Positions 16,114 to 64,000 of a stretch of 64,000 nucleotides of DNA are shown here, piece by piece. This DNA is from Pelagomonas calceolata (lineage: Eukaryota > Sar > Pelagophyceae > Pelagomonadales > Pelagomonadaceae), in the NCBI GenBank assembly GCA_918797485.1, contig CAKKNE010000006.1, positions 1,054,001-1,118,000 of the forward strand. Reading direction: 5' to 3'. The notes beneath the pieces are model-generated. The model ran no database searches and was not told where the DNA came from. It was given only the letters and a program-made list of their open reading frames with translations. The translations under genes were made by a program, and so were the position numbers. How positions within the stretch are numbered: position 1 is the first letter of the stretch; every line of letters begins with the position of its first letter.

Positions 16114-19100
16114 ATGGCGGACGCCGCGGCCGAGAAGCGCGCGGCGAACAAGTTCTCGCGCCAGAACGCCGCGCTAGGAGCGGAAACCACAAAATTCCTG
16201 CGCGAGGCCAAGGTCCTCGTCGTCGGCCTGCGCGGCGCCGGCATCGAGCGGCGCACGAATCAAATTTAGGCGCCTGCACACCCGCCTCACCGGTCGATTC
16301 GCACAGGCGTCGAGACGGCGAAGAACTGCTTGTTGCAGGGCGTCGGCCACTTATCACTCTATGACCCGAAGCCCTGCGCCGAAAGTGACAGAGGTGCCAA
16401 TTTCTTTATCGGCGCGCCGGACGTCGGCCGGCCGAGGGACCAGGTCTGCGCGCCGCGCTTGCAGGAACTCAATCCTGATGCTGTCGTCCACGTCGCCGAG
16501 GCGTTGGACGAAGACTTGGTGGAGTCGTGTACTTGTGTCGTTTTCACAGATGGTGTCAATAGAGCGGAATTAGTAAGGTGGAACGAGTTCTGCCGGTCCC
16601 GCATGACGGACGTCGTGGACGAGCGCGGCGTTTCTATGACCGTAGCGGCACCGATCAGTTTTGTGTGGGCGGTCTGTGCCGGGTTATGTCTGTCGATTTT
16701 CGTGGACCATGGGGATCAGTTCGAGTGCCGCGACGCCGACGGTGAAAGGCCTGTGGTGAGATTGGTGGAGTCGATCTCATGTGAAAAACAAGGTTTGGTA
16801 CGATACGCCGTGCCCGACGGCGTGCCCGCGACGTCGCCGCCGGTCGACTCGTTGTACGCCTTTTCTGATGTGCAGGGGTGCTGCGGGTCTGCTCTAGGAG
16901 GTAGTGGGTTGAACGACTGCGCCCCCTTCCCTTTTACTACCAACAGTGGAGACCCGGCGAACTCCTTTAGAATTGGGGACACTACTTCGTTGTCACCTTA
17001 TGAGGGAGGTGGTCTCATCACGGAAACGAAACGACCGAAAACACTACGCTTTAGAAGCTTAGGTGAGCGGTTAGTAGCGCCCGGCACGCCTTTTGGGAGT
17101 GACGGAATACCGATGACCGATTACACGTTTTCGGGCAAGGAGGCGCAGGTCCACGCCGGTCTTGTTGGATTGATGGAGTTCGAAGCCAGTCAAAAGAGAC
17201 TGCCCAACGCGAACGACGAGCAAGATGCCGAAGATGTTTTGTCTGCGGCAAAAACGTATGCGGCCGCGTGTCAAGTTTTGAACACGGCGACGGCCGACGG
17301 CGCGAAGGCGCTGGACGTCACGATTGATGAGTCTGTAGTGAGAGCCTACGCGAGGCACGCGTCCGTGGAGTTGCAGCCCGTGGCGACGTTCGCGGGCGGC
17401 GTCGTGGCCCAAGAGGTCGTCAAAAGGTCCGGAAAATACACGCCGATTGATGGCTTCGCGCACTTTGCGTTTCTCGAGACGATGCCCGATCCCCCTCCAG
17501 CCTTAGCTGATCGGGCGCCGCGCGGTGACAGGTATGACGACCTCGCGGCGGTGTTTGGGAGAAGCTTCGTCGAGAAGCTCGGTGATTTGACTTATTTTTT
17601 AGTTGGAAGCGGTGCTTTAGGCTGCGAGTTCGTGAAGAACTTTGCGCTGTGTGGCGTGTGTTGCGGTCCGGAAGGTTCGCTCACGATTGCCGATGCGGAT
17701 CGCATCGAGCTATCGAACCTCACGCGACAGTTTCTGTTCCGAGAACACAACGTGGGCCAGTCGAAAGCGCTAGCGGCGGCGGCCATGGCGACGAATCCGG
17801 GAGGACGCACGCGCGCGCCGCCCATGAACGAACATTTGAAAGTGACGTGTCATGAAGCGTACGTCGGACCCGCGACCGAGGTAAGCCCGTTCACGGACGA
17901 GTTCTGGGAGGGTTTGGACGGCGTCTGCAACGCCTTGGACAACATGGAGGCGCGGTTCTACGTCGACAAGGCCTGCGTGACCTTCGAGAAGAGCCTGTTG
18001 GAGTCGGGCACGATGGGTACTTCGGGGAACGTGCGATCTCCGCGTTTTGAGGTGTTGCGGTGCCTTCACTTTGTTGGTGTGACTCGTGTGCATCTCACTT
18101 CCATGAGAGTGGTTTCTTTGTCGAATTTGAGTGAATTCGGACCGAACCGCAATGCTCCGCGCAGGTCGACCCCGTCGTGCCGCATAAAACAAAAACTTAC
18201 AGAGAAGGAGGTAATGCGGCGGAGGGCCAGGGCGTGCCCATGTGCACTTTGCGGAACTTTCCCCATCTCATTGATCATTGCATCGAGTGGGCTCGCGATA
18301 AATTTGCCGAGTTGTTTGAAAAACCGCAACGGCGCGTCAAGAAGTTCTGTTCAGAGCCGCAGGCTACCTTGACCGATTTACAGCGGAGATTGGAGTCCAG
18401 CGATCCGGCGGATGTGGAAGGTGCGTCGGCCGAAGCGTTGTTGCTGTGGCAGGCGTTGGAGGTCGCCACTGCACCATTAGAACAAAGGCGACAGTTATGT
18501 GCTCAAAGATGTTATGATGCGTTCCACGGCTTTTTTCGGGATCAAATTTGCGATCTCATACGGGCCTATCCCAAAGATGCGAGAGTGATGAAAAATGGCC
18601 AGGACAAGGGCCCGTTCTGGTCCGGCCACAAGCGCTTCCCCACGGCGGCCACTTACGGCGACGACGCGGACCAGTGGCGCTTTCTGGTGAGCGCGACGCA
18701 CATCCTGGCGCAGAGCATGGGCGCGCAGCCTCGTAAAACGGAGGGCGACGACGACTACGCTTCTTCCGAGAGGAATGAGGTCTTTGCCGCTTCCGTGGCC
18801 CAGACTTGTGTCATCCCGCCGTACATCCCGGGCACCGTCGACAAGGACATCGAGGGCGACACTTCTGATGTAGCGACGCCGGACAATTCGGTAGATGTGG
18901 CCCGATCAAAGGGTTTGGAAGCCTTGCAGCGCCTGTCTTCCGTAAATCTCACTTCGGTAGATGTGGAACCGGCCGACTTCGAGAAAGATGACGACTACAA
19001 CTTCCACGTGCGTTTTCCGTGTCTTACGTGACGCGGTCGCCGCGCCGCCGTCGTCACGAGCCCACGAGTGATATCACACAGATCGACTTCGTCACGGCCT

Positions 19101-24519: not shown

Positions 24520-25268
24520 CTGCGGAGGGGCGCGGCGGGTGAGCGGTTTGCGCGGGGCGTGGCGTGCTCTCGGGAGTTTGGTGTGTGTTGCGAGCGCAGG
24601 CGGGCGTCTCGGTGGCGCTTTTTGGCGTCGGCCGGTCCACCGCTCCGCCGCTCCGCTCGTTCGCGGCACACACAAGCGTCAGGGATTTGCGCGATGACGC
24701 AGCAAGGTCGTGTGGCTCGCGGTGGGCCCCGGAACTGCTCGCGCGCGGGCTAAGGGCCGCGCCGCAGCCCTATGAGGCCATGGAGCTGAGGCCGGCCCGC
24801 GCTCGCTGACTGCGGCGTTTCGTTGCAAACCGGCTCGTGGCGCCATCGATAGTCCTTATAGGCGTCGCGCACGCGTGTCGGTTAGTTGTGTCGTAACGTA
24901 CCATGGTGCCGTAAATTGGCCTCGCTGATCAGCAGGACCGCCAACTCTAGTGGCAGGAAGCTATTGCCGACAGCCGAAGCGCCGCTCGCCGTCATTGACG
25001 ACGTCGTCTTGGACCGTCTCGCGCCTCCACAGCTTCCAAAGCGACGCCCAAAACCCGCGAGTTTTAAACAATCTACCAATCCAATCTATGGAGTAACAGC
25101 TACTACTGCCTATTAAACTTCGAGTACGAATGGTATTGAAAAACACCAGGTCTGTGATGTGCTCTCAGGGGGATCTTATCTTACCTGTACCTCAACCCAG
25201 GCGACGTCCCGCGCGTCGGCTTGAGTGTTGACTCAAGCTCTCGTGCGGACGTCCGCTCAGGTGTTGGT
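24520..25268. other. eL39 intron and promoter side, plus intergenic DNA
   Basis: About 750 bp holding the eL39 intron, its undetermined ATG exon, and the 3' flank of the 664-aa gene. I see no further gene. Short ORFs here have no recognisable content. Confidence 0.45.
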
Positions 25269-27657
25269 TCAGGCGTCGCGTTTGGCCCTTTTCGCCGCGC
25301 GTTCAGCGCGGGTCGCCCACTGGCCCGTCGACGCAGACGAGGCGCGGCCGCGTTTCTTCCCGTTCGCGACGCGGCCGTCTCCCGGAGGCTCGGCGAAGCC
25401 CTCGGCACGGAGCCGGTCGCCCAGCATCCGCTCGAGGTCCAGCGCGTCGACACGCGCCGCGATCGCGTCGCAGACGACGTCGTCCAGGACGCCGTCCCGC
25501 TCGCGCAGCTTCACGAGTTCGCGTCGAACCTCCGTCGACCGAATCTTCGACAGCTCGCGCGCCAGCGTCTGCGAGACGACCCAGCGCACGCGGCACTGCT
25601 CGATCGTCTCTCTGAGAACGACCCGAATCGTGGGACCGCCGCCGGCCGCGGGGCCGCCGCCGGCCGCCTGCCGCATCATCTCTTCTAACACGTCCGGCGG
25701 CGGCGGCACGGCGAGGCACACGGCGCGCGTCGGGTAGTTGAGCGCCTCGCGGCCGCGCGCCATCTGCGCGATGTCGGCTACGAGCGCCGCCACGTGCACA
25801 TCGCTGTAGGTTGCTTCCAGCCTCGACCCGTCGCCGAGGTACACCCGCACCCGAAACGTATCGTAGCGACCCGCCACGCACGCGAACTCGGTCCCGTACC
25901 TCGCGAAGTTGCCGCCGCGGCCCGAGGCCTCGTGGGCCGCCCGTTTCTCGGCCCACCGGGCCTCCGTGGCCGCGCGGCGCCGCGCGATGCCCGCCCACCA
26001 CGCGCTGTCCCGGTCCTCGACCTGTGTGGAAATCAAACTTCGGACGCCCCACGGAACCTAACTCACTGGTTGATTTCCACACATACCTCGACCATGCGCC
26101 GGAACACGCCGCCCGGCGCCCAGCCCTCCTCGAGCAGCTTCTCGAGCGCCTCCCGCATCGCCCCGTCCTCCAGCGACTTGCGGAAGACGCCGTCCGGGTC
26201 CGCCCAGAGCTTCTTCATAAACCGCGACCTGTGTGGAAATCAAATTTCAGGCGTCCCACGCCATCGACACGACGTCGTCCCACGCCATCGACACGACGTC
26301 GTCCCACGCCATCGACACGACGTAGTCCCACGCCATCGACGCGACGTCGCCCCGTGACTGCGTCTTCTCAATGGCGTGGAGGTTTACGATGGTCTCCACA
26401 ATAATTCTCAGTATCACCGTCTGAATGGCCTCAAAATCGGAAAAGAAACCACCCACGACCTCCTCTCCTAGAGACGACGCGCGTCGATGGCGTGAAGGCG
26501 CCGCAGCACCGCGGGCAACTCCTGGTTGATGATTTCCACGCAGACCGCTACGTCTCCTCCCTCGCCTCGGCGATAACGTCGGCGTCGTTGGCGTACATGC
26601 GGCGCCAGTAATTGATCTCGCCGCCGGCGCCCAGCACCGTCATCCCCAGGTGCTTCGCGATGGCCGTGAGGCAGCGGTCCGAGGCCACGATGTGCTTCTC
26701 GAAGTCGAGGTGGCCCCAGCAACCCCGGTAAATCAAAGTCCCCGCCATGGGATGGATGTGGCGGCCGAGGTTGTTCACGGCGTCGCCGAACACCGCCTCC
26801 ATCGCAGCGCACGCGTCCTCGCCCCACGTCGCCACGGCCGGCTTCTCGCCGTGGGCCAGCTCGTAGATCAAGAACGTCACGGCGATGGCTTCGAGGTGGA
26901 CCTCCATGAGCGCGTCGGCCCGCTCGGCGCCGCCGCACGCCCGGCGGAACTCGGTCGAGGGCGTGATCGAGTTGTCGTTGTCGTCCTTCTTCCTCATCAA
27001 GATCGGGTAGATGTCCTGGACGAAGCCCCCATTCTTCTCCGCGTCGCCCTTCGCGATCTCGTCGTGCTTCTCCGTGCTCTTGATGAAGGAGTTCGGGCCG
27101 ATGACCTTGCCCACGCACACGTTCGCCTTGTTGGTCTTGCCGTCCCGCAGGTGGTCGTCGGTGTCGGGGTCGAAGCACATGATGTGCGCGATCGCCTCGT
27201 TCAGCAGCTCCGCGAGGGAGTTGACGTCCGACTGCGACGGCTCCAGGCCGTATTTCTTGGCCAGATCGGCGACCTTCTCCCGTAGCTCCTGGAGGCGCTT
27301 CCATAACGCCTCGATGACCTCGGGCGGCGCGTGGACGCGGAAGGTCTCGCCGCCGGTCTCGAGCACGAAGGGCGGTTCCGTCGAAGCGTCGCCCTCGACG
27401 CCGTCGCCGTCCTTGCGGAAGACGCTGCTCAGGTCAAATTCTTCTAAGTTAATGCCGGCGCGCTTCAACGCCTCGAGCTTCTCGGCGCTGTCGCCGACGC
27501 GGCTCCACTGGGCGAGTTTGCGCTTCCATAGCTGCTCCCGCAGGCGCGCGCGGGCCTCGCCGCCCCGCAGGCCGGCGCCACTTTGATAGAGTTCGCTCTG
27601 CTGCGTCGTTTCAACCTGAGCGCGGCGGCGCTTGGCCGTGCGGTTGGCTCTACCCAT
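25269..27657 (-). CDS. Unknown 664-aa protein split by two family T introners
   Basis: Three exons: 27657..26552, 26228..26093 and 26021..25269. The joins EAREET|SRFMKKLW and VFRRM|VEDRDSAWW keep one frame. The start MGRANRTAKRRRAQ is basic and looks like a nuclear signal. A coiled-coil-like helix (IEALWKRLQELREKVADLAKK) follows near residue 120. Next come NKANVCVGKVIGPNSFIKS and a conserved-looking segment around HPMAGTLIYRGCWGHLDF. The last exon has a beta-rich part (YDTFRVRVYLGDGSRLEATYSD) and ends KRGRASS...RAAKRAKRDA. I recognise no family. The C-terminal third would be out of reach without splicing of both introners. Confidence 0.7.
26022..26092 (-). mobile_element. Family T introner, miniature (63-nt element), intron 2
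   Basis: Element 26022..26084 with ends TGTGTGGAAATCAA and TTGATTTCCACACAG. Flanks gtcgaggt (26092..26085) and gtcgagga (26021..26014) match 7 of 8. Donor is GT of the first flank. A second in-frame donor, GTATGT at 26086, would add Val-Glu. Acceptor is CAG of the right end. Confidence 0.92.
26229..26551 (-). mobile_element. Family T introner, composite with A-type core, intron 1
   Basis: 315-nt element with left end CTGCGTGGAAATCAT and right end TTTGATTTCCACACAG. Flanks gtagcggt and gtcgcggt match 7 of 8. Inside is the A core (gcggcgccttcacgccatcgacgcg, shown in part, and gattttgaggccattc) and a 24-bp tandem repeat. The first codon of the intron is a stop, so splicing is needed. Confidence 0.92.
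26254..26349. repeat. 24-bp tandem repeat, four copies
   Basis: Four adjoining copies of TCCCACGCCATCGACACGACGTCG (split: TCCCACGCCATC + GACACGACGTCG) with one or two changes, inside the 26229-26551 intron. The unit is an expanded form of the motif common to all introner families here. Confidence 0.9.
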
Positions 27658-28191
27658 TTTTGTGCTTCCTTTTGGCGCAGCGGCGGCGGGCGGCGGCGGA
27701 AAAGCAGGCAGTTGTTTTGGGCGTACGGCGGCGCGAGGACGCTTCCGTTCGCGGCGGCGTCTCTTGAGCAGCGAAGACAGCTGTCGGGAGCACTGCTGCG
27801 CGGCGTTATGTAGCGTGCGGCCGCGATTGCGTGCTGTATATGCAGGCAATTGCGAGGACGAACCGCCAGATCTAGCGGCGTAAGACACTAGCTCCAGCTC
27901 TCGTCGAGGCGCCCGCGCCAGCTTGTGGAGGCGTCCAGCGAGACCTCGAGAAGCCTCAAGGGTTCCCAAAACACCGCTCCTAAACCCGAACCATTTTTTG
28001 GGTAAGCAATCGCCATAGCCTTTTTTGTCGTCCGCGCTGCTCTTGTAGAGTACCGCCGGTCACCACAGCTGGTCAATAGAGGTCCCAGCCAGCCACCCGA
28101 GCCGCCGCCGCCGCCGCGCCGCGCCGCCCGGAGACGCAGATACAGAGTAGATCAGCGACATCACATAAAGTAGATCAGCGCGCCATAAACC
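27658..28191. other. Intergenic, 534 bp, divergent promoter region
   Basis: It lies between the 664-aa gene (-) and uS4 (+). A 12-bp direct repeat AGTAGATCAGCG occurs at 28146 and 28169, within 50 bp of the uS4 start. Confidence 0.5.
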
Positions 28192-44700: not shown

Positions 44701-45774
44701 TTAAATATTTGTCCATGGTGTTCCTGGCGTCGTTTAATTGCGTTTCGAGCTCTTTCCCGTGGGTTTTCGCCTCCGTCGCTTCGGCCTGCAAAGCTTCCTG
44801 CTCGCCCGTGCGAGCCTCGAGGAGCTTGAGCGTGTTCTTGAGCTCCTTGTCGAGGCGCTCCTTCGACCTTTGACCCCTCTGGACTTCTGCCGACCGAGCT
44901 TGGAGACTTTGCTCGAGGTCCGCCTTGTCCCCTCGGAGCGTGGCGCACTCGACACGCTCGCTCTCAAGGACCTCGGTCATGTTGGTCAACTGCGTCTCGA
45001 GGACCTTGCACGTCCCGGTCGCTTCGTCCGTCTGCCGTTGGAGCTCGTCCCTCGCCGCGGTCAATTCTTGGACCAGGCCCTCTTGCGTGCCCGTCAACGC
45101 GGCGCTCTTCTCGACGAGACCGCTCAAATTCGCGATCTCCTCCTTGAGCGACGTGATCGTTTCTTTGGCGCTCGTTTCTTTCGATTGCGCGGTGTCGACC
45201 TGCGCGGAGCATCGTAATCGAAAAAGAAACGACCCCCGGCATCGTGCGATGGCCACGAGTCCATCCAAGGAAGTGAAGGCACCGCAACACCTCAAAACGC
45301 CGAGATCGCACCATCTTCCAGGCCTTCTCGACCTCGCTCCGCAGCGTCGTGATGGTCTGTTGATCATCTTGACTGAGTTTGAGGGCCGTGTGGACCTTGG
45401 AGGCGTTGTTCACGATCTCATTATTCAGGTCCTTGACTTTTTTAATGAGTTTTCTTTCGTGGTCCTGCGCGGGGCGTCGCGGTCGCTCGAAATCGGAAAA
45501 GAGACCACCCACGGCCTCGTGAGATGGCCACGAGTCGAAGGCACCGCAAGACGGGACGCCGCGAGCGCACGTGGCTGCGAACTAAAGCGCGGTGGACCTT
45601 CTCGTATTCGGCCCTAAACTCGTCTAAAGATTCATCTCCAGCGAGCGTCGCGAGGACGTCCTGGAACTCCTTCTCGAGGGTCTCGAAGGCGGAGAGCGAG
45701 AGGGCCTGGTCGTCGTCCTCCAATAAGCCCTTGAGGCCGCTCGACGCTCCTTCGCCCTCGACGTCGACGTCCAT
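41727..45774 (-). CDS. CFAP58: Cilia- and flagella-associated protein 58
   Basis: Nine exons: 45774..45571, 45464..45312, 45199..44611, 44431..44151, 43950..43772, 43540..43247, 43110..42984, 42794..42493, 42261..41727; 887 aa, nearly all coiled coil. Blocks match animal CFAP58 closely: FQDVLATLAGDESLDEFR, ALKLSQDDQQTITTLRSEVEKAWKM, LKQQQHLYEAVRSDRNLYSK, SVINERDILGAQVIRRNDE, IETPLNIHRWRQLEGSDP, LQKRLIQKTEEVVERDL, and the end RFTGGGFAIR. CFAP58 is needed for axoneme and mid-piece/basal structures. Eight introns, 106-231 nt, all introner-like, intron 7 with a GC donor. It is divergent from the EML-like gene 516 bp away, which may share its promoter region. Confidence 0.95.
42262..42492 (-). mobile_element. 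Introner, A start with C core, CFAP58 intron 8
   Basis: 231 nt, GTGCGAGCTCCGCGTC to CCCCGCGCAG. Flanks gtgcgagc/gtgcaagg agree at 6 of 8. A-type first half, then C-type core (gcgtcgatggcgtcagcgcg). Confidence 0.88.
42795..42983 (-). mobile_element. Introner with sense and inverted cores, GC-AG, CFAP58 intron 7
   Basis: 189 nt, GCGCGCTCGCGGCG to GCTCCGCGCAG. A sense half (ttttggggccattcggacc) is followed by an inverted half (gaaatcaaaaacgaaaccac), so the transcript could fold back. Joins MDDD-ALTQRKEY. Confidence 0.87.
43111..43246 (-). mobile_element. Introner family C, CFAP58 intron 6
   Basis: 136 nt, GTGCTGACTCGGCGTC to CGACGCGCAG. Flanks gt/gt. Joins KKIDKQ-YETTRNEV. Confidence 0.9.
43541..43771 (-). 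mobile_element. Introner with palindromic double core, CFAP58 intron 5
   Basis: 231 nt, GTGCGCTCGCCGCG to TGCGCCGCGCAG. The sense core (gaggccgttcggaccgcgtc) is followed by its inverse (gacgcggtccgagacggctc). Joins EQRNL-YTACLEEV in phase 2. Confidence 0.9.
43951..44150 (-). mobile_element. Introner with inverted A core, CFAP58 intron 4
   Basis: 200 nt, GTGCTGCGACGGCG to ATGAACACAG, inverted core (gcgacgcggtccgaaccggc). Joins AETEK-AEQQIVVT. Confidence 0.9.
44432..44610 (-). mobile_element. Introner family A, CFAP58 intron 3
   Basis: 179 nt, GTGCGTATCTCGGCG to TCCCGCCGCAG with sense core (tgcgattttgaggcccttcg). Joins QQQHLEG-VQHQKTI. Confidence 0.92.
45200..45311 (-). mobile_element. Introner family A, CFAP58 intron 2
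   Basis: 112 nt, GTGCGATCTCGGCG to GATGCTCCGCGCAG, typical ends and the ggtgccttcact segment. Joins KAWKM-VDTAQSKE. Confidence 0.93.
45465..45570 (-). mobile_element. Introner family A, CFAP58 intron 1
   Basis: 106 nt, GTGCGCTCGCGGCG to ACGCCCCGCGCAG, sense core. Joins LVRSH-DHERKLIKK. Downstream exon starts GA. Confidence 0.9.
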
Positions 45775-53883: not shown

Positions 53884-54564
53884 GGGTAATGCTGCTTGTG
53901 ATGGTGCGGCTGCGAGCAAGCTGTCCAGTGGCTGCCCAGGGTGAGACGCACGTACGTGTTGCGCCCCGCGCAGTGCTGATCGATGGCACTACACTCGAGT
54001 CGGAGTTGGGCGCCTAGGAGCCGAGAGGGCTGCCCACAACAAGCCGGCACACACCTTTGGCAGGGACCCCTAGTGGGTTTCTCACGGCGCGCCCCGCACG
54101 CTGTGGCGGGCTTTGCGACCTAGATCGCACCCCATCAGTCCCCGTCGGACGCGTCGCGCGACGCAGCTGGCCGGCGTGGCAACCGCGCGCGGCTCCACCA
54201 TCGGTCCAGCCTGAACAGAGGAGCGGTCGCACCCGTGCGACCGCTCCGCATTCGCCCACCAGCGGACGCCCCGCCGCGCGTGACCACATTCCGATGGACG
54301 AAATCGCTCCCCGTGGGCAGCGCCTTCCGCTTTCATCGCCTGTTAGGCAAAAGCAGCAACGAACAGCTGCCAAAGCGCTGCCCCCGCCGACCCCCAGCCA
54401 ACGCTTACCCCGTGCACACGTCGCTGCTCAGTGCGTAACTCAAATGTCGCTGCGCGCGTCGCCGCCATTGCTGAATCCTGGCATCCACGCCACCGACGCG
54501 ACGCCAGCGCGATGGCGTGCACCCGACTCACTGGTTGATTTGCGCGCAGGTGCTCCTCTCGATC
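53884..54564. other. Intergenic plus 5' UTR of the ammonium transporter
   Basis: About 680 bp, divergent promoters. The last 100-120 bp look like an intron in the 5' UTR of the transporter (see 54450-54549). No other gene supported. Confidence 0.5.
54450..54549 (+). mobile_element. Probable family T introner in the 5' UTR of the ammonium transporter
   Basis: The right end CTGGTTGATTTGCGCGCAG is a family T end with changes, and CTGCGCGC at 54450 mirrors its last 8 bases. Internal sequence (CATCCACGCCACCGACGCGACG, in part) matches family T. The acceptor CAG is 15 bp before the ATG. A clean target duplication is not visible and the donor is uncertain (perhaps GT at 54446). Confidence 0.55.
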
Positions 54565-57290: not shown

Positions 57291-60200
57291 ATGGCCTCGT
57301 ACCTCTACAATTCCTTAAAGAGAATTGTCGTCGGAGAAGAGGACGACGACCCGTCCTGTCTGAAGGACCCCGTGACCATGGCGCTGTACGAAGATCCTTT
57401 GAAGGGTCTAGGTCTCAAACAAACCGCACAACCGTGGGACACGAGAGACGCGCTGCGGACGAACTGCTTGAATTTAGTAGCGCAATCGTCTCTGAACCGA
57501 CGAGATAAACCTCTACTACCGCATAAATACGCGCTCATCGCCTACCACCTCGCGGCGAAAACCATCAAGGTGACGAAGGCGCAGGACCTCAAAAGGCTCC
57601 TGGACGAGGAACCGCACTTGTTCTCTGGTGCGGTCCCGCGTCGCGCGCAGGTGCCTTCACGCCATCGAGCCGCGTCGTCTCCAGGAGAGAAGGCGTCGGG
57701 CGGTCTTTTTCGCGACTTTGAGCCGTTTCGGACCGCGTCGCGACGCCGTCGTTCCGCGCAGGCCGGCCCACGGACATGCTGCAGATTCTGAGGCCGGTCC
57801 ACTGCGCCGGCGTGCCCACGAATAGTCGTGTCCGAGCGGGCGCGATGTTGCACGTCATCTACGATGATTACGTCCTGTGCCAGGACCCGGGCGACGCGCT
57901 GCCGCACCAGCAGTACGTCTGCAAGGTGTCCTATTGTGGAAGACAACATTTCGTGAGGAGACGGTTCTCGGAGTTTAAATTACTACACGATAAATTACAA
58001 AAAGAATTACTTGTGGTGCCGGGCTTTCCGAGTGCTGATGTGTCCTACAAAGTTGGCCTTGGCGATTATTCAGCGAGAGGCAAGGCTCTCTGTAGATACG
58101 CTTGTAGAGTGCACGCCTCATTGGGCGCGCGGGGCATGTTCTCGCCGCGCTTGCTCGCGTTCCTGGAGATCGACGCGGCTCGTGTTCATATCGAGGAGGA
58201 CGGTGCGGTCTCGGCGTCCCGCGGTGCCTTCACGCCATCGACGCGCGTCGTCTCCAGGAATGCTGGAAGTGGGTGGTCTCTGGTCCAAATTTGAGCCGTT
58301 TCAGACCGCGTCGAGGGACCACGATGCTCACGCAGTCGTTCCGCACAGGTCGCGTCTCGAAGATGCTCGACTCCACGTCCCAGGTCTCGGGGAGCGTCTG
58401 GCACATGGTCGACGAGTTCTGGCTGAAAAAGTGGCGCAAGTTCGTGCTAGGGCGGGCGGCGCGACGTTATGAGCCGCCGGGGCCGATTTCCAACGAACAC
58501 CTCCTCGAGAGTGTGGCGCGCACGCGCTATCTACTGACCGAATCGCTCACGGTGGAGGAAAGGAAGAAGCGCCAGAAGGAGCTCGACGAGCGCGCGACGA
58601 CCGTCCCACCACCAATACGTAGAGAAGCTCGGTTAGAATTCGACCAGCGGAGTGCCGCGGTGGACAAGTACCAGACGCCATTGGACGAGGATAGCAAGGA
58701 GGAACCCGTACAACCGGAGCCCGCGACGATAGGAAAACATTATCGGGCGATCAACTACGACCTGTGGACGTACTGGCGGATGGTGCACGGCGGCGGTGCC
58801 GAGTCAGCGTCTTCACGCCATCTTCATGAATCGTCTCCACGAGAGAATGGTTTCTTTTTCGAATTTGGGGCCGTTCGGACCGCGTCGCGACGTGGTCGCC
58901 GCGGCGCCGTCCCGAGGATCACACGAGCGTCGTCCCCGCGCAGGCCCCTGCATCTCGCGCAAGACGAAGGAAATCACCTCTCCGCCGGCCTGCGGCCCCG
59001 GCCAGGAGGCCGTGTCTCGCTTGCAACGCTTCGGGAGGATGTGCATCTCCAAACAGCGACGCATCGCGAAGTTCTGGAATCATTTATCAGGTACCGCTGC
59101 TGGAGTGAGGGAGGTCTTAGCTGATGCTGCTGAGAGGCGTATAAGAGATAGAGTGGATAGGACCCTGGGCGCGGCGCGGAACAAGCGCACGGAAGGGAGA
59201 TTGAGGTTAGCGGCTCGCTACACGCAGCGCATGTGGCGGTCGAAGCGCGCGTACGCGTTCAACGACGAGAACGTAAAAGTGATGAAGCACGCGCAGGAGA
59301 TCTTCGCGCGGGCCGACGGGGAGGTCGAGCACGCGTCGGCGGGCGCGCCCTTCGTCGTCGAGGAGGGGGAGAGGATCGTGCAGGTCGGCGCGACGGAGCA
59401 GTACGAGATCAAGTTTACCGAGTCGGATGGTCCTTCCTTGCCCGTCGTGTTCAAGCGCCATTCCTGTTCGGAGCTGACGTATGTCCACTCCGTCGGGAAG
59501 GACATGGCGATGAAGAAGGGGCGGGATCAATTGGTGCGGACGCGGCGTCCGTTGGTCTTCTCGCGCGTCGCGTCGATGGCGTCGGGGGGAGAGCAGGCCG
59601 ATTCGGGCCGCCGGTCGCCGCGATGGCGTCGACGCCGTCTTCATGATCACGCGAGGGGTCCACGCGTCGCGCGAGAGCGGGTCGCGGCGATGGCGTCTCG
59701 CGAGCGTCGTGTCGCGCCTCGCAGGTGCCCGACTCCGTGTTATTGGTGGTCCAGTCCTACCCCGTGTCGTCGTTGGCGCACGACCAGGTCATGCACCGGT
59801 TACGTTCGGCAAAATGGCCCGTCACGCTTAGATTTTCGAGACCACTCACCGATAGCGACGTGACACCCCTCGCGCGATGCTTGCAGCTGGAACAGCAGGG
59901 CGAACTGCCCGACGACCTGAAGCTGCAGATGCTCAAGCGGCTCCTCAGCAAGGGCGTCGCGGTCAGGAAACACGGCTCCAGGAAGCAGGCGTACGACACG
60001 GTCGTGTACCTCAACGAGACGATGCTCTTCTGGCGGGTGCGATCTCGGCGTTTTGAAGTGTTGCGGTGCCTTCACGCCATCGACGCGACTCGTGTCCATC
60101 TCACGAGGCCGTTCGGACCGCTTTGACGGAAATGCTCCGCGCAGGTCCGCGACGCCCTTAAGCAGCAGGCCAATTCCAAGGTGCGCAAGAAGAAGAAGAC

Positions 60201-60763
60201 CGAGGACGTCCAGGAGGAGGTGCGCGGTTTGAGTCTCAAACTGTGTGGAAATCAACCAGTGCGTCGGGTGCACCCGACAATTCTTCACTAAGTCATTTCT
60301 CGGCGATGACGTGGCCGTCCTGGCAAGGTCGAGCGGTGAGGGACCGGCATCGCCACGCCATCGAGCAGGCGTCGCGTCGATGGCGTGGAGGTCGACGCGA
60401 CGATTCAGCACGAACGCGCCGTAAAATTTTGATTTCCACACAGGTCTCAAATATGATCTCACTAAGGGTGTCGGTTTGTACGATCTGCGGTACGTGCGCG
60501 TGGGCAAGATCTCGTCGTCGTTCAAGCGCTATGCGTCGAAGAAGGCGCCTCAGGACCGGTGTTTGTCGCTATTTTGTGCGGGTTCCAAGACGATAGATCT
60601 GGAGGTGCTCGGTGACGCGAAGGAACGAGATGCCTTCGCGTGGGCCTTCGACAAGATCATTGGCGAAGCGCGGGCGACGCGCATCTTCGTGGACAAGGCC
60701 GGCGCGCCGGTCGCGCGGTCCGAGCCGAAGAAGCGGCTACGGATGATCCTGGGGGCGCACTAA
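57291..60763 (+). CDS. PX - DUSP - PDZ-like - PH-like scaffold protein
   Basis: Seven exons: 57291..57627, 57762..58202, 58349..58795, 58944..59533, 59725..60036, 60145..60232, 60444..60763; 844 aa. PX domain about 145-250 (YVCKVSYCGRQHFVRRRFSEFKLLHDKL, in part; a phosphoinositide-binding RRF motif). DUSP-like about 275-325 (VDEFWLKKWRKFV...PPGPISNEHLL). An IQ-like basic helix follows (RLAARYTQRMWRSKRA). PDZ-like about 560-650 (YEIKFTESDGPSLPVVF...SVLLVVQSYPVSSLAHDQVMHRL). The PH-like end is about 740-835 (YDLRYVRVGKISSSF...FAWAFDKII). It probably links phosphoinositide membranes to other proteins. I do not know this domain order from a named family. Five introns are A- or C-type and the sixth is a clean family T copy. 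Confidence 0.8.
57628..57761 (+). mobile_element. Introner family A, PX gene intron 1
   Basis: 134 nt, GTGCGGTCCCGCGTC to GTTCCGCGCAG. Joins EPHLFSG-RPTDMLQIL. Downstream exon starts GC. Confidence 0.9.
58203..58348 (+). mobile_element. Introner family A, PX gene intron 2
   Basis: 146 nt, GTGCGGTCTCGGCG to GTTCCGCACAG. Flanks gtgcggtc/gtcgcgtc agree at 5 of 8. Joins HIEEDG-RVSKMLD. Confidence 0.9.
58796..58943 (+). mobile_element. Introner, A core with C-like start, PX gene intron 3
   Basis: 148 nt, GTGCCGAGTCAGCGTC to GTCCCCGCGCAG. Joins MVHGGG-PCISRKTK. Downstream exon starts GC. Confidence 0.9.
59534..59724 (+). mobile_element. Introner, C-like, PX gene intron 4
   Basis: 191 nt, GTGCGGACGCGGCG to GCGCCTCGCAG. 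Flanks gtgc/gtgc. Joins KGRDQL-VPDSVLLV inside the PDZ-like domain. Confidence 0.88.
60037..60144 (+). mobile_element. Introner family A, PX gene intron 5
   Basis: 108 nt, GTGCGATCTCGGCG to AATGCTCCGCGCAG. Joins TMLFWR-VRDALKQQ. Confidence 0.93.
60233..60443 (+). mobile_element. Family T introner with perfect 8-bp target duplication, PX gene intron 6
   Basis: Element 60241..60443 (203 nt), ends CTGTGTGGAAATCAA and TTGATTTCCACACAG. Target copies gtctcaaa at 60233..60240 and 60444..60451 are identical. Donor GT belongs to the first target copy, acceptor AG to the element. Spliced reading EEVRGLSLKYDLT. Confidence 0.96.
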
Positions 60764-62020: not shown

Positions 62021-64000
62021 ATGCCCGAGTTACCTGAAGGGACGATTAATGCGTTTATACAGAACAAGAACCTGGCCAAGTATGGCCTGCTCAAGGACAA
62101 CGAGGGCGGGTTTCTTGCGGAGAATTTCGTCGACTATCAGCTCATCGATAGGTGCGATCTCGGCGTCCTGCGGTGCTGCGGCGCCTTCACGCCATCGACG
62201 CGACTCGTGTCCATCTCACGATGCCGGGGGTGGTCTCTGGTCCAAATTTGGGCCGATTCGGACCGCGTCCATCATTCCTGGAGACGACGCGCGTCGACCG
62301 CCGCACGCCGCCGCGCGACCGCGACGCTCCGCGCAGGCACGAAACCCTCGAGGAAATAGTAGCGGTGGGATGGATGAGCGACTTCCACCCCTTCAACAAG
62401 GACCTCGTGGCGGACCCCTCGCCGAAGATTTTAGTTATTGTCGACCGAGAACAAACCTACGGCGACTTCTGGCGCGTTTGCTTGACCGCCGAGGCCCAAG
62501 AACGGGAGATGAAGGCCATTAATGCTGAGCAAGAAGAGGCGCGACTTCTGGCCGAGGCCATCGAGGCGGAGCGGCTGCGCGTCGAGGAGGAAGCTAGAAA
62601 GGCAGCGACGGCCGTGTACGACGACTCGCCTATTGTAGCGAAGGCCTACGCGTCGGAGACGAGGGATGAGACGTTCGAGGACGTCGCGGCGTTGGACGTC
62701 GTGCCCGAACGGCCGCTGATGCAGTTCCAGCTGTCGCGACCTGTGTGGAAATCAAAATTTTACGGCGCGTTCGTGCTGAATCGTCGCGTCAACCTCCACG
62801 CCATCGACGCGATGCCGGCTCGATGGCGTGGCGATGCCGGTTCCTCGCCGCTCGAGCGAGCCAGGATATCGGCCGACGCACTGGTTGATTTCAACACAGG
62901 TCGCGACCGGCCGACTCGATCGGCGAGCCTCGCGTGTTTGCCGACCTCTCGGCGGACAACGAGATGTTCACGGAATCGCGCTCGACGAAAAATCCTGATT
63001 TCGCCCTGGAACGACGGGAAATGTCCGTCTCCGTCCAGGCCTGCAAGGTCAAGAAAGATACGGGTTCGCAGACCTGGACGCGGCCCATCCAGGCCAGTAC
63101 GCAGTACCACCCTGTTGGAGACGCCTACCAGCTCCCACCACCTCCCCCAGAGTCGAAAAGAGAACGCCAGGCGTCCCGACAGAAGCTCGTGAACGGTAAA
63201 AAGGGCCAGGTCGAGGAGGACACTAGTCTGATGACCGAGGACCAGCTCAACGAAAGAAAGAAGGCTGCGGAGCGAGACAGGAGCTACGCGCACGTCGCCC
63301 GGTTCCTCGCCAAGACCTTTGGGCTGATGGAGAACGCGCTGGAACAGAACGAGACGGTCGACGTGTTCGGGGATCTTTTTAAGGGTGCTGACTCAGCGTC
63401 CGTTTTTGATGAATGAACTTCAAGGTCGCGTCGATGGCGTCGGCGCGACGCCACGCCACCGCGGCGCCGTCGACGGGGCCGTGTGAGAGTCCACGGGTCT
63501 CGTGAGCGTCGCGTCGCGACCGCGGCCCCGCGCAGGTACTGGGGCCGGCGCCGAAGACCTGGAAGCGTCCAAAGGTGCGCTCGGTGAATTGAAAGAATTA
63601 CGGACCTTCGCCGACATCAACAGGACGAAAGGAAAACACTTACACAGCTTGCAGTGGCACCCCGCTCGCAAGGGCGTCGTCGCCGTCGGCCCGCGCTCCA
63701 ACTTAACCTTCGAGGACCGTTTACCGTCGAGTGGCTTTTCGTCGTCGTCGCACGTCCTGTACTGGGACTTTGCTGATTTAATAACGCCGTTACTCGTGTT
63801 GGAGGCGCCTTATAGCGTGGAAGCCTTTGCGATTAACACAGAGCGGCCCCACCTCGTCTGTGGCGGCCTCGAGAACGGCCAGGTGCTCGTCTGGGACACG
63901 TCGGCATCCACACAAGCTATCGACGCGAAGCGACAGCGAGAGAAGCGGCGACTCGCGGGAGAAAGCACGAAGGACGACGAGGAAGCGGCTCTCTTTGATG
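62021..64000 (+). CDS. DNAI3: Axonemal dynein intermediate chain DNAI3 (WDR63), 5' part
   Basis: Exons 62021..62151, 62337..62732, 62900..63384 and 63536 to beyond the window. Conserved words match human WDR63 (remembered): SDFHPFNKDL, a segment DTGSQTWTRPIQASTQYHPVG (in part), then LHSLQWHPARKGVVAVG, SNLTFEDRLPSSGF, VLYWDFADLITPLLVLEAPY and HLVCGGLENGQVLVWDTS. The last is the start of the WD40 propeller. DNAI3 belongs to inner dynein arms and has also been linked to actin regulation. A helical EEEARKA-rich insert lies in exon 2. Three introns: A, T and C type, one of each. Confidence 0.93.
62152..62336 (+). mobile_element. Introner family A, DNAI3 intron 1
   Basis: 185 nt, GTGCGATCTCGGCG to GACGCTCCGCGCAG with full core (gcggtgctgcggcgccttca). 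Downstream exon starts GC. Confidence 0.93.
62733..62899 (+). mobile_element. Family T introner in reverse orientation, DNAI3 intron 2
   Basis: Element 62741..62899 (159 nt) between identical 8-bp copies gtcgcgac (62733..62740 and 62900..62907). Its first 70 bases match the reverse complement of the last 70 of the 60241-60443 copy with about one difference. Right end TTGATTTCAACACAG. Spliced reading MQFQLSRPADSIG. Confidence 0.96.
63385..63535 (+). mobile_element. Introner family C, DNAI3 intron 3
   Basis: 151 nt, GTGCTGACTCAGCGTC to GGCCCCGCGCAG. Flanks gtgctg/gtactg agree at 5 of 6. Joins GDLFKG-TGAGAEDLE and avoids a stop. Confidence 0.92.

Follow-up and report, generated by a model that had tools for sequence, protein, structure and literature searches.

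How does an intron come to begin with the same eight bases as the exon that follows it? The question is raised by the last intron of a gene of the pelagophyte Pelagomonas calceolata (intron A, 60233-60443), which lies in a window of 64,000 nucleotides (contig CAKKNE010000006.1, positions 1,054,001 to 1,118,000), the window being the whole stretch of DNA analyzed here and the frame of all coordinates below, except where a locus is named. We consider it about 92% probable that intron A arose as an introner, by insertion of a short non-autonomous DNA transposon into coding sequence, and we predict that it is spliced.

Anatomy of intron A and its proposed origin

The host gene (gene 1; 57291-60763, plus strand) was modeled by hand with 7 exons and 6 introns, all six of them GT-AG, giving a single open frame of 844 aa that ends at a stop and has DUSP and PX domains above the Pfam cut-offs. 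A PH domain guessed for the last exon was dropped (Pfam, 0 families; PDB, nothing below E 0.9). Intron A, the last of the six, is 211 nt long and in phase 1. On the plus strand, a repeat search places an element of 203 bp (copy A, 60241-60443) between an upstream 8-bp target copy, GTCTCAAA (60233-60240), and an identical downstream copy (60444-60451), the latter being retained in the exon. The element is bounded by a left inverted end, CTGTGTGGAAATCAA (60241-60255), and a right inverted end, TTGATTTCCACACAG (60429-60443), which are complementary at 15/15 positions, so that the 15-bp inverted ends between identical 8-bp copies described in an earlier note are exact to the base. The presumptive donor is the GT with which the upstream target copy begins; the presumptive acceptor is the right end, with its AG at 60442-60443 and a branch-site-like TTGAT, the branch-site consensus being YTNAY. 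The anatomy is thus as that note had claimed, with a donor apparently drawn from the target and an acceptor from the element end, and the layout recurs in all seven complete copies described below.

It had further been claimed that splicing leaves one target copy and an unchanged protein, and removal of intron A does give the open 844-aa model, as a prediction. Left unspliced, the coding frame reaches TAA at 60289-60291, within the element (read by eye). Within the ranges examined, nine GT-AG pairs keep the frame open for intron A, the target-copy pair included, and an open frame alone therefore cannot fix the donor; among these pairs, that of the target copy is the one that restores the presumed pre-insertion sequence. 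No relative that tests junction A was found in Pfam (0 families) or the PDB, and as the exons flanking the intron fall in no family and have no match in the PDB below E 0.9, homology is uninformative on this junction.

We propose that the element, mobilized by a transposase that would have been supplied from elsewhere, inserted in coding sequence at a staggered 8-bp cut, by which the target GTCTCAAA would have been duplicated. The inverted end TTGATTTCCACACAG, with its branch-like TTGAT, pyrimidines, and CACAG, would have brought a 3' splice site with it, and the donor would have been recruited from the upstream target copy, at its GT. Splicing would then take out the element together with one target copy and leave the original sequence. 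Splicing itself and the branch site are what we infer; the features read from the DNA are the anatomy, the seven copies, both orientations, the intact frames, and, at two junctions, a protein alignment with no gap. It is very probable that the cell is able to remove the element from RNA as an intron.

Complete copies in the window and in a marine MAG

Nine places in the window match the 15-mer end when up to 3 mismatches are allowed, against 0.7 expected, and eight of these pair into four complete copies, A to D. Intron B (62733-62899, plus strand) starts with the target copy GTCGCGAC (62733-62740), which is found again at 62900-62907, and has an element of 159 bp (62741-62899) oriented opposite to that of A. 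Its host gene (62021-64000, plus strand) runs off the window and has 3 introns in the visible part; a sequence match in the PDB identifies its product as a WDR63/DNAI3-type dynein axonemal intermediate chain, and a Pfam scan gave 0 families. Introns C and D lie in a third gene region (25250-28059, minus strand; hand model, 664 aa), for which no Pfam match and no PDB match were found. The element of intron C (26022-26092, minus strand) is 63 bp long (26022-26084) and lies between target copies GTCGAGGT and GTCGAGGA, which have one mismatch, as do the copies GTAGCGGT and GTCGCGGT around the 315-bp element (26229-26543) of intron D (26229-26551, minus strand). Intron D contains 24-bp tandem repeats as well as an internal piece resembling a second intron family, minus that family's ends. 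Read by eye, the boundary of intron C at 26084-26092 offers a stronger-looking donor, GTATGT, 6 bases inside; splicing from it would likewise leave the frame open, with two codons more. Neither Rfam nor a tRNA search gave a match in the window.

When prokaryote genomes were scanned for the end sequence, six loci were returned, and from these come three further complete copies. Two of these loci, L004 (copies L004a and L004b) and L006 (copy L006a), belong to a marine MAG labeled Spirochaeta sp. MED672 (NZGT01), and the three copies have exact target copies (GTCATGAC, GTCGCCAC, and GTCGGCCG); the pattern by which L004a was found already demanded GTC after the element. The remaining loci, L001, L002, L003, and L005, were taken as chance, as they match 18 bases (L002, 23 with the window) and nothing further at E 1e-3. 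Across MED672, the 15-mer end is matched at 14 places with up to 2 mismatches, of which eight are on contigs other than C146 and C182, each with 2 mismatches. Exact-pattern scans of a viral collection with the end sequences and with the donor end of the second family, which diverged copies would escape, gave no match.

The MED672 contigs with copies look eukaryotic: their genes are split by apparent introns, and their CNNM protein is closer to CNNM4 (E 1.7e-80) than to the best "hemolysin" entry (about 1e-22). As intron-split, eukaryotic-looking genes with the same introners occur in a "bacterial" bin, the bin is probably contaminated or mislabeled, and we infer that these contigs are probably algal contamination. 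At about 2050-2600 of L006, two related coding stretches face each other by eye around a single element end, an arrangement that may be an assembly artifact. This end (L006 2383-2397) has no partner in the locus, and the ninth end match of the window (54535-54549) is likewise partnerless, its best upstream target match being 5/8; neither shows the target-element-target arrangement, and both are left out of the seven.

Similar introns are thus found at unrelated positions, with seven complete copies in five genes on three contigs. The 15-bp inverted ends carry 0-3 changes per end across the copies, the 8-bp target copies are exact in five and have one mismatch in two, and GT comes first in the target copy in all seven. 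Copy A is unchanged in its ends and target copies, a single change is present in one end of B, and C and D each have, besides the target-copy mismatch, one (C) or two (D) changes in an end. The suggestion in the earlier note that copy A is young is therefore reasonable, although in a relative sense, as an age set against the changed copies B, C, and D.

Splice junctions, orientation, and other explanations

In 7/7 complete copies the sense strand reads as a GT-starting target copy, the element ending in CACAG, and the second target copy, and at the sequence level the spliced frame is open at all seven junctions. The intron lengths modulo 3 are 1, 2, 2, 2, 0, 2, and 2, so that intron retention would shift the frame in six of the seven. 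At junction B, for which 12 in-frame GT-AG pairs lie within the ranges examined (target-copy pair included), the dynein axonemal intermediate chain 3 of 8j07 aligns ungapped, in a weakly conserved stretch whose nearest gap is 8 residues upstream. CNNM4 also aligns ungapped at the L004a junction, in a well conserved stretch. These two junctions are the best independent signs that the message would keep exactly one target copy.

They also bear on the strongest of the other explanations, in which an ordinary MITE lies within or next to an intron that was already there and the true splice sites are elsewhere, for example at the GTGCG-type donors common in window introns. Five of the six gene 1 model introns begin with GTGC, and a donor, GTGCGCGG, is present at 60220, 13 bases upstream of intron A, and keeps the frame with an acceptor at 60466; paired with the CACAG acceptor at 60443, however, it breaks the frame. 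Set beside the usual donor consensus, GTCTCA and GTCGCG look weak. We regard a bystander MITE as unlikely, given that the target copies stand exactly at the inferred boundaries in all seven copies and that solved relatives show no gap at the two junctions.

The neighbors beside the two ends are unlike, which makes the orientation of the element readable: A, C, D, and L006a are inserted one way and B, L004a, and L004b the other, a ratio of 4 to 3. With both orientations present, either inverted end, whichever lies downstream, can apparently supply the acceptor, and since both ends have the same inverted module, an intron would be possible in either orientation, given a sense-strand target starting with GT. 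This mixture of orientations speaks to a second alternative, the spread of the family by reverse splicing of intron RNA instead of DNA transposition. Fungal introners have been so interpreted, according to Gozashti 2022, yet reverse splicing should yield a single orientation, while a target duplication, inverted ends, and both gene orientations are marks of DNA transposition; we judge this route very improbable here.

If the downstream end serves as acceptor, TTGAT and CACAG are intact there in 7/7 copies. In this core, 0/70 positions are changed at the used end versus 5/70 at the unused end (P = 0.058), while over the whole 15-mer the counts are 3/105 versus 9/105 (P = 0.13, not significant), so that the smaller number of changes at the acceptor end is suggestive only. 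A first-base change common to D and L006a may have been inherited and need not reflect two separate events. In folding predictions, introns A and B form hairpins in which the inverted ends pair with each other and the 8-nt donor segment stays unpaired (z of -4.95 and -3.84, respectively, against shuffles); such hairpins largely follow from the inverted ends and are no proof of a role in splicing.

The frequency with which this structure could arise by chance was assessed by scanning both strands for structures of 50-420 bp in which an 8-mer beginning with GT is followed by a pair of inverted ends (8 bp, up to 2 mismatches), an AG, and the same 8-mer again. With exact 8-mers, the scan of the window returned A and B only (B twice, once per strand, its target being palindromic), against 0 in each of 20 first-order Markov shuffles. 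Allowing one mismatch in the 8-mer added C and D, with a shuffle mean of 0.25 and a largest count of 1. Dropping the GT/AG condition gave two further GC-rich matches, at 1759 and 2314, and 3 in total in the 20 shuffles, so that weaker repeat pairs can arise by chance. Among the 11 modeled introns, the first 8 bases of the intron match the first 8 of the next exon at 8, 8, 7, and 7 positions in the four copies, whereas the other seven introns reach 3-5; cross-intron pairs of intron start and exon start have a mean of 3.5 matches, and 2/110 reach 7. Least credible, and extremely improbable, is an old intron that gained its direct repeat and inverted ends with no transposition, through chance or gene conversion. 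Chance direct repeats of 8 bp are indeed frequent here, with two other families in a stretch of 501 bases, but the exact structure is absent from 20 shuffles and the same 15-bp ends recur at seven sites with seven different target copies.

A shared motif and relation to known introners

A 17-base motif, CACGCCATCGACGCGAC, is scattered over both strands of the window: when up to 3 mismatches are allowed there are 44 places, where 1.06 would be expected. It has an exact copy inside element A (60371-60387, minus strand), further examples at 60073-60089 and 62188-62204, and exact occurrences in MED672 contigs C146 and C182. With up to 2 mismatches there are 28 places, 15 outside the three modeled gene regions and 13 within them, all 13 being intronic; the introns make up 1,835 bp of these regions, and no match falls in the other 6,428 bp. 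The intronic share is 15/16 at up to 3 mismatches and 20/23 at up to 4. The 13 matches are spread over 8/11 introns, including introns with different ends, and lie on both strands relative to the gene, but they are not independent, as 5 of them are in intron D, four in one tandem array. We read the motif as a sequence common to several introner families, which would have moved between families or been inherited.

The second family consists mostly of introns of the form GTGCGATCTCGG...CTCCGCGCAG, at 18030, 55672, 57621, 58194, 60036, and 62151 on the plus strand, with further places at 26419-26515 and 45218-45311 on the minus strand. At the four of these eight places that lie in modeled introns (GTGCGATC...CTCCGCGCAG), no clear 8-bp target copies were found, the 3-5/8 matches sitting near the cross-intron mean of 3.5. 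A tentative reading, which we hold to be somewhat less probable than its opposite, is that the introns are modular: different transposon ends, with or without readable target copies, would carry one cassette with the core CACGCCATCGACGCGAC on either strand, and families would swap interiors and retain their own ends. Such a swap would then be seen in intron D, which has CTGTGTGG ends and an internal piece like the GTGCGATC family. If real, an exchangeable cassette would bear on how introner families diversify.

The hAT superfamily makes 8-bp target copies with an nTnnnnAn preference; the copies here are 8 bp, with T at position 2 in 7/7 (implied by GT) and A at position 7 in 4/7. Huff, Zilberman and Roy, in Nature in 2016, reportedly described the introners of Aureococcus anophagefferens as short non-autonomous DNA transposons, one splice site being said to be carried by the introner and the other taken from the duplicated target. 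Those introners would be of the same transposon type with the same split origin of splice sites, a likeness at the level of description. Of the traits of a DNA-transposon introner, a target duplication (8 bp) and terminal inverted repeats (15 bp) are present here, and split splice sites, one in the element and the other from the target, are indicated in all seven copies by sequence and frame only.

Direct and terminal inverted repeats, along with canonical splicing motifs, are attributed to Aureococcus introners in PMC7789003. The statement in the earlier note that such introners are known from Aureococcus is borne out in print, in Gozashti 2022, where introner family 4 of Aureococcus sp. (TARA_AOS_82_MAG_00129) has an 8-bp target duplication, as the window family does. 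Family 4, however, brings both splice sites with it and lengthens the transcript by 12 bp, whereas the window family would take its donor from the target copy and add nothing. In the same paper, the introners of Symbiodinium microadriaticum resemble the window family in having their own 3' splice site, a 5' splice site from the target copy, and inverted ends, but differ in their 4-bp target copies and belong to another lineage. Amoebophrya introners, as described in PMC7789003, share inverted repeats able to close an RNA hairpin and boundary direct repeats; those repeats are 3-5 nt and the splice sites mostly non-canonical, in contrast to 8 bp and GT-AG here.

For P. calceolata itself, Guerin 2022 gives a GC content of 63.6% (62.6% in the window), an average of 0.45 introns per gene (six in the gene 1 model), and a peak of intron length near 210 bp (211 nt for intron A), which its authors liken to Aureococcus introner elements. 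A word-based literature search, which cannot find sequences, returned no printed description of the CTGTGTGG end sequence, and the available part of the mirusvirus introner paper names no pelagophyte. The layout of a target-copy donor, an element acceptor, and inverted ends is already in print in Gozashti 2022, whose method also allows for insertion in the opposite orientation. The mechanism is therefore one already known from related algae, and what the window adds is one family that, judged by its sequence, has the introner layout in several genes and in both orientations. It provides a clean worked example of how a transposon may become an intron without harm to the gene, with donor, acceptor, target copies, and orientation independence all readable from the DNA.
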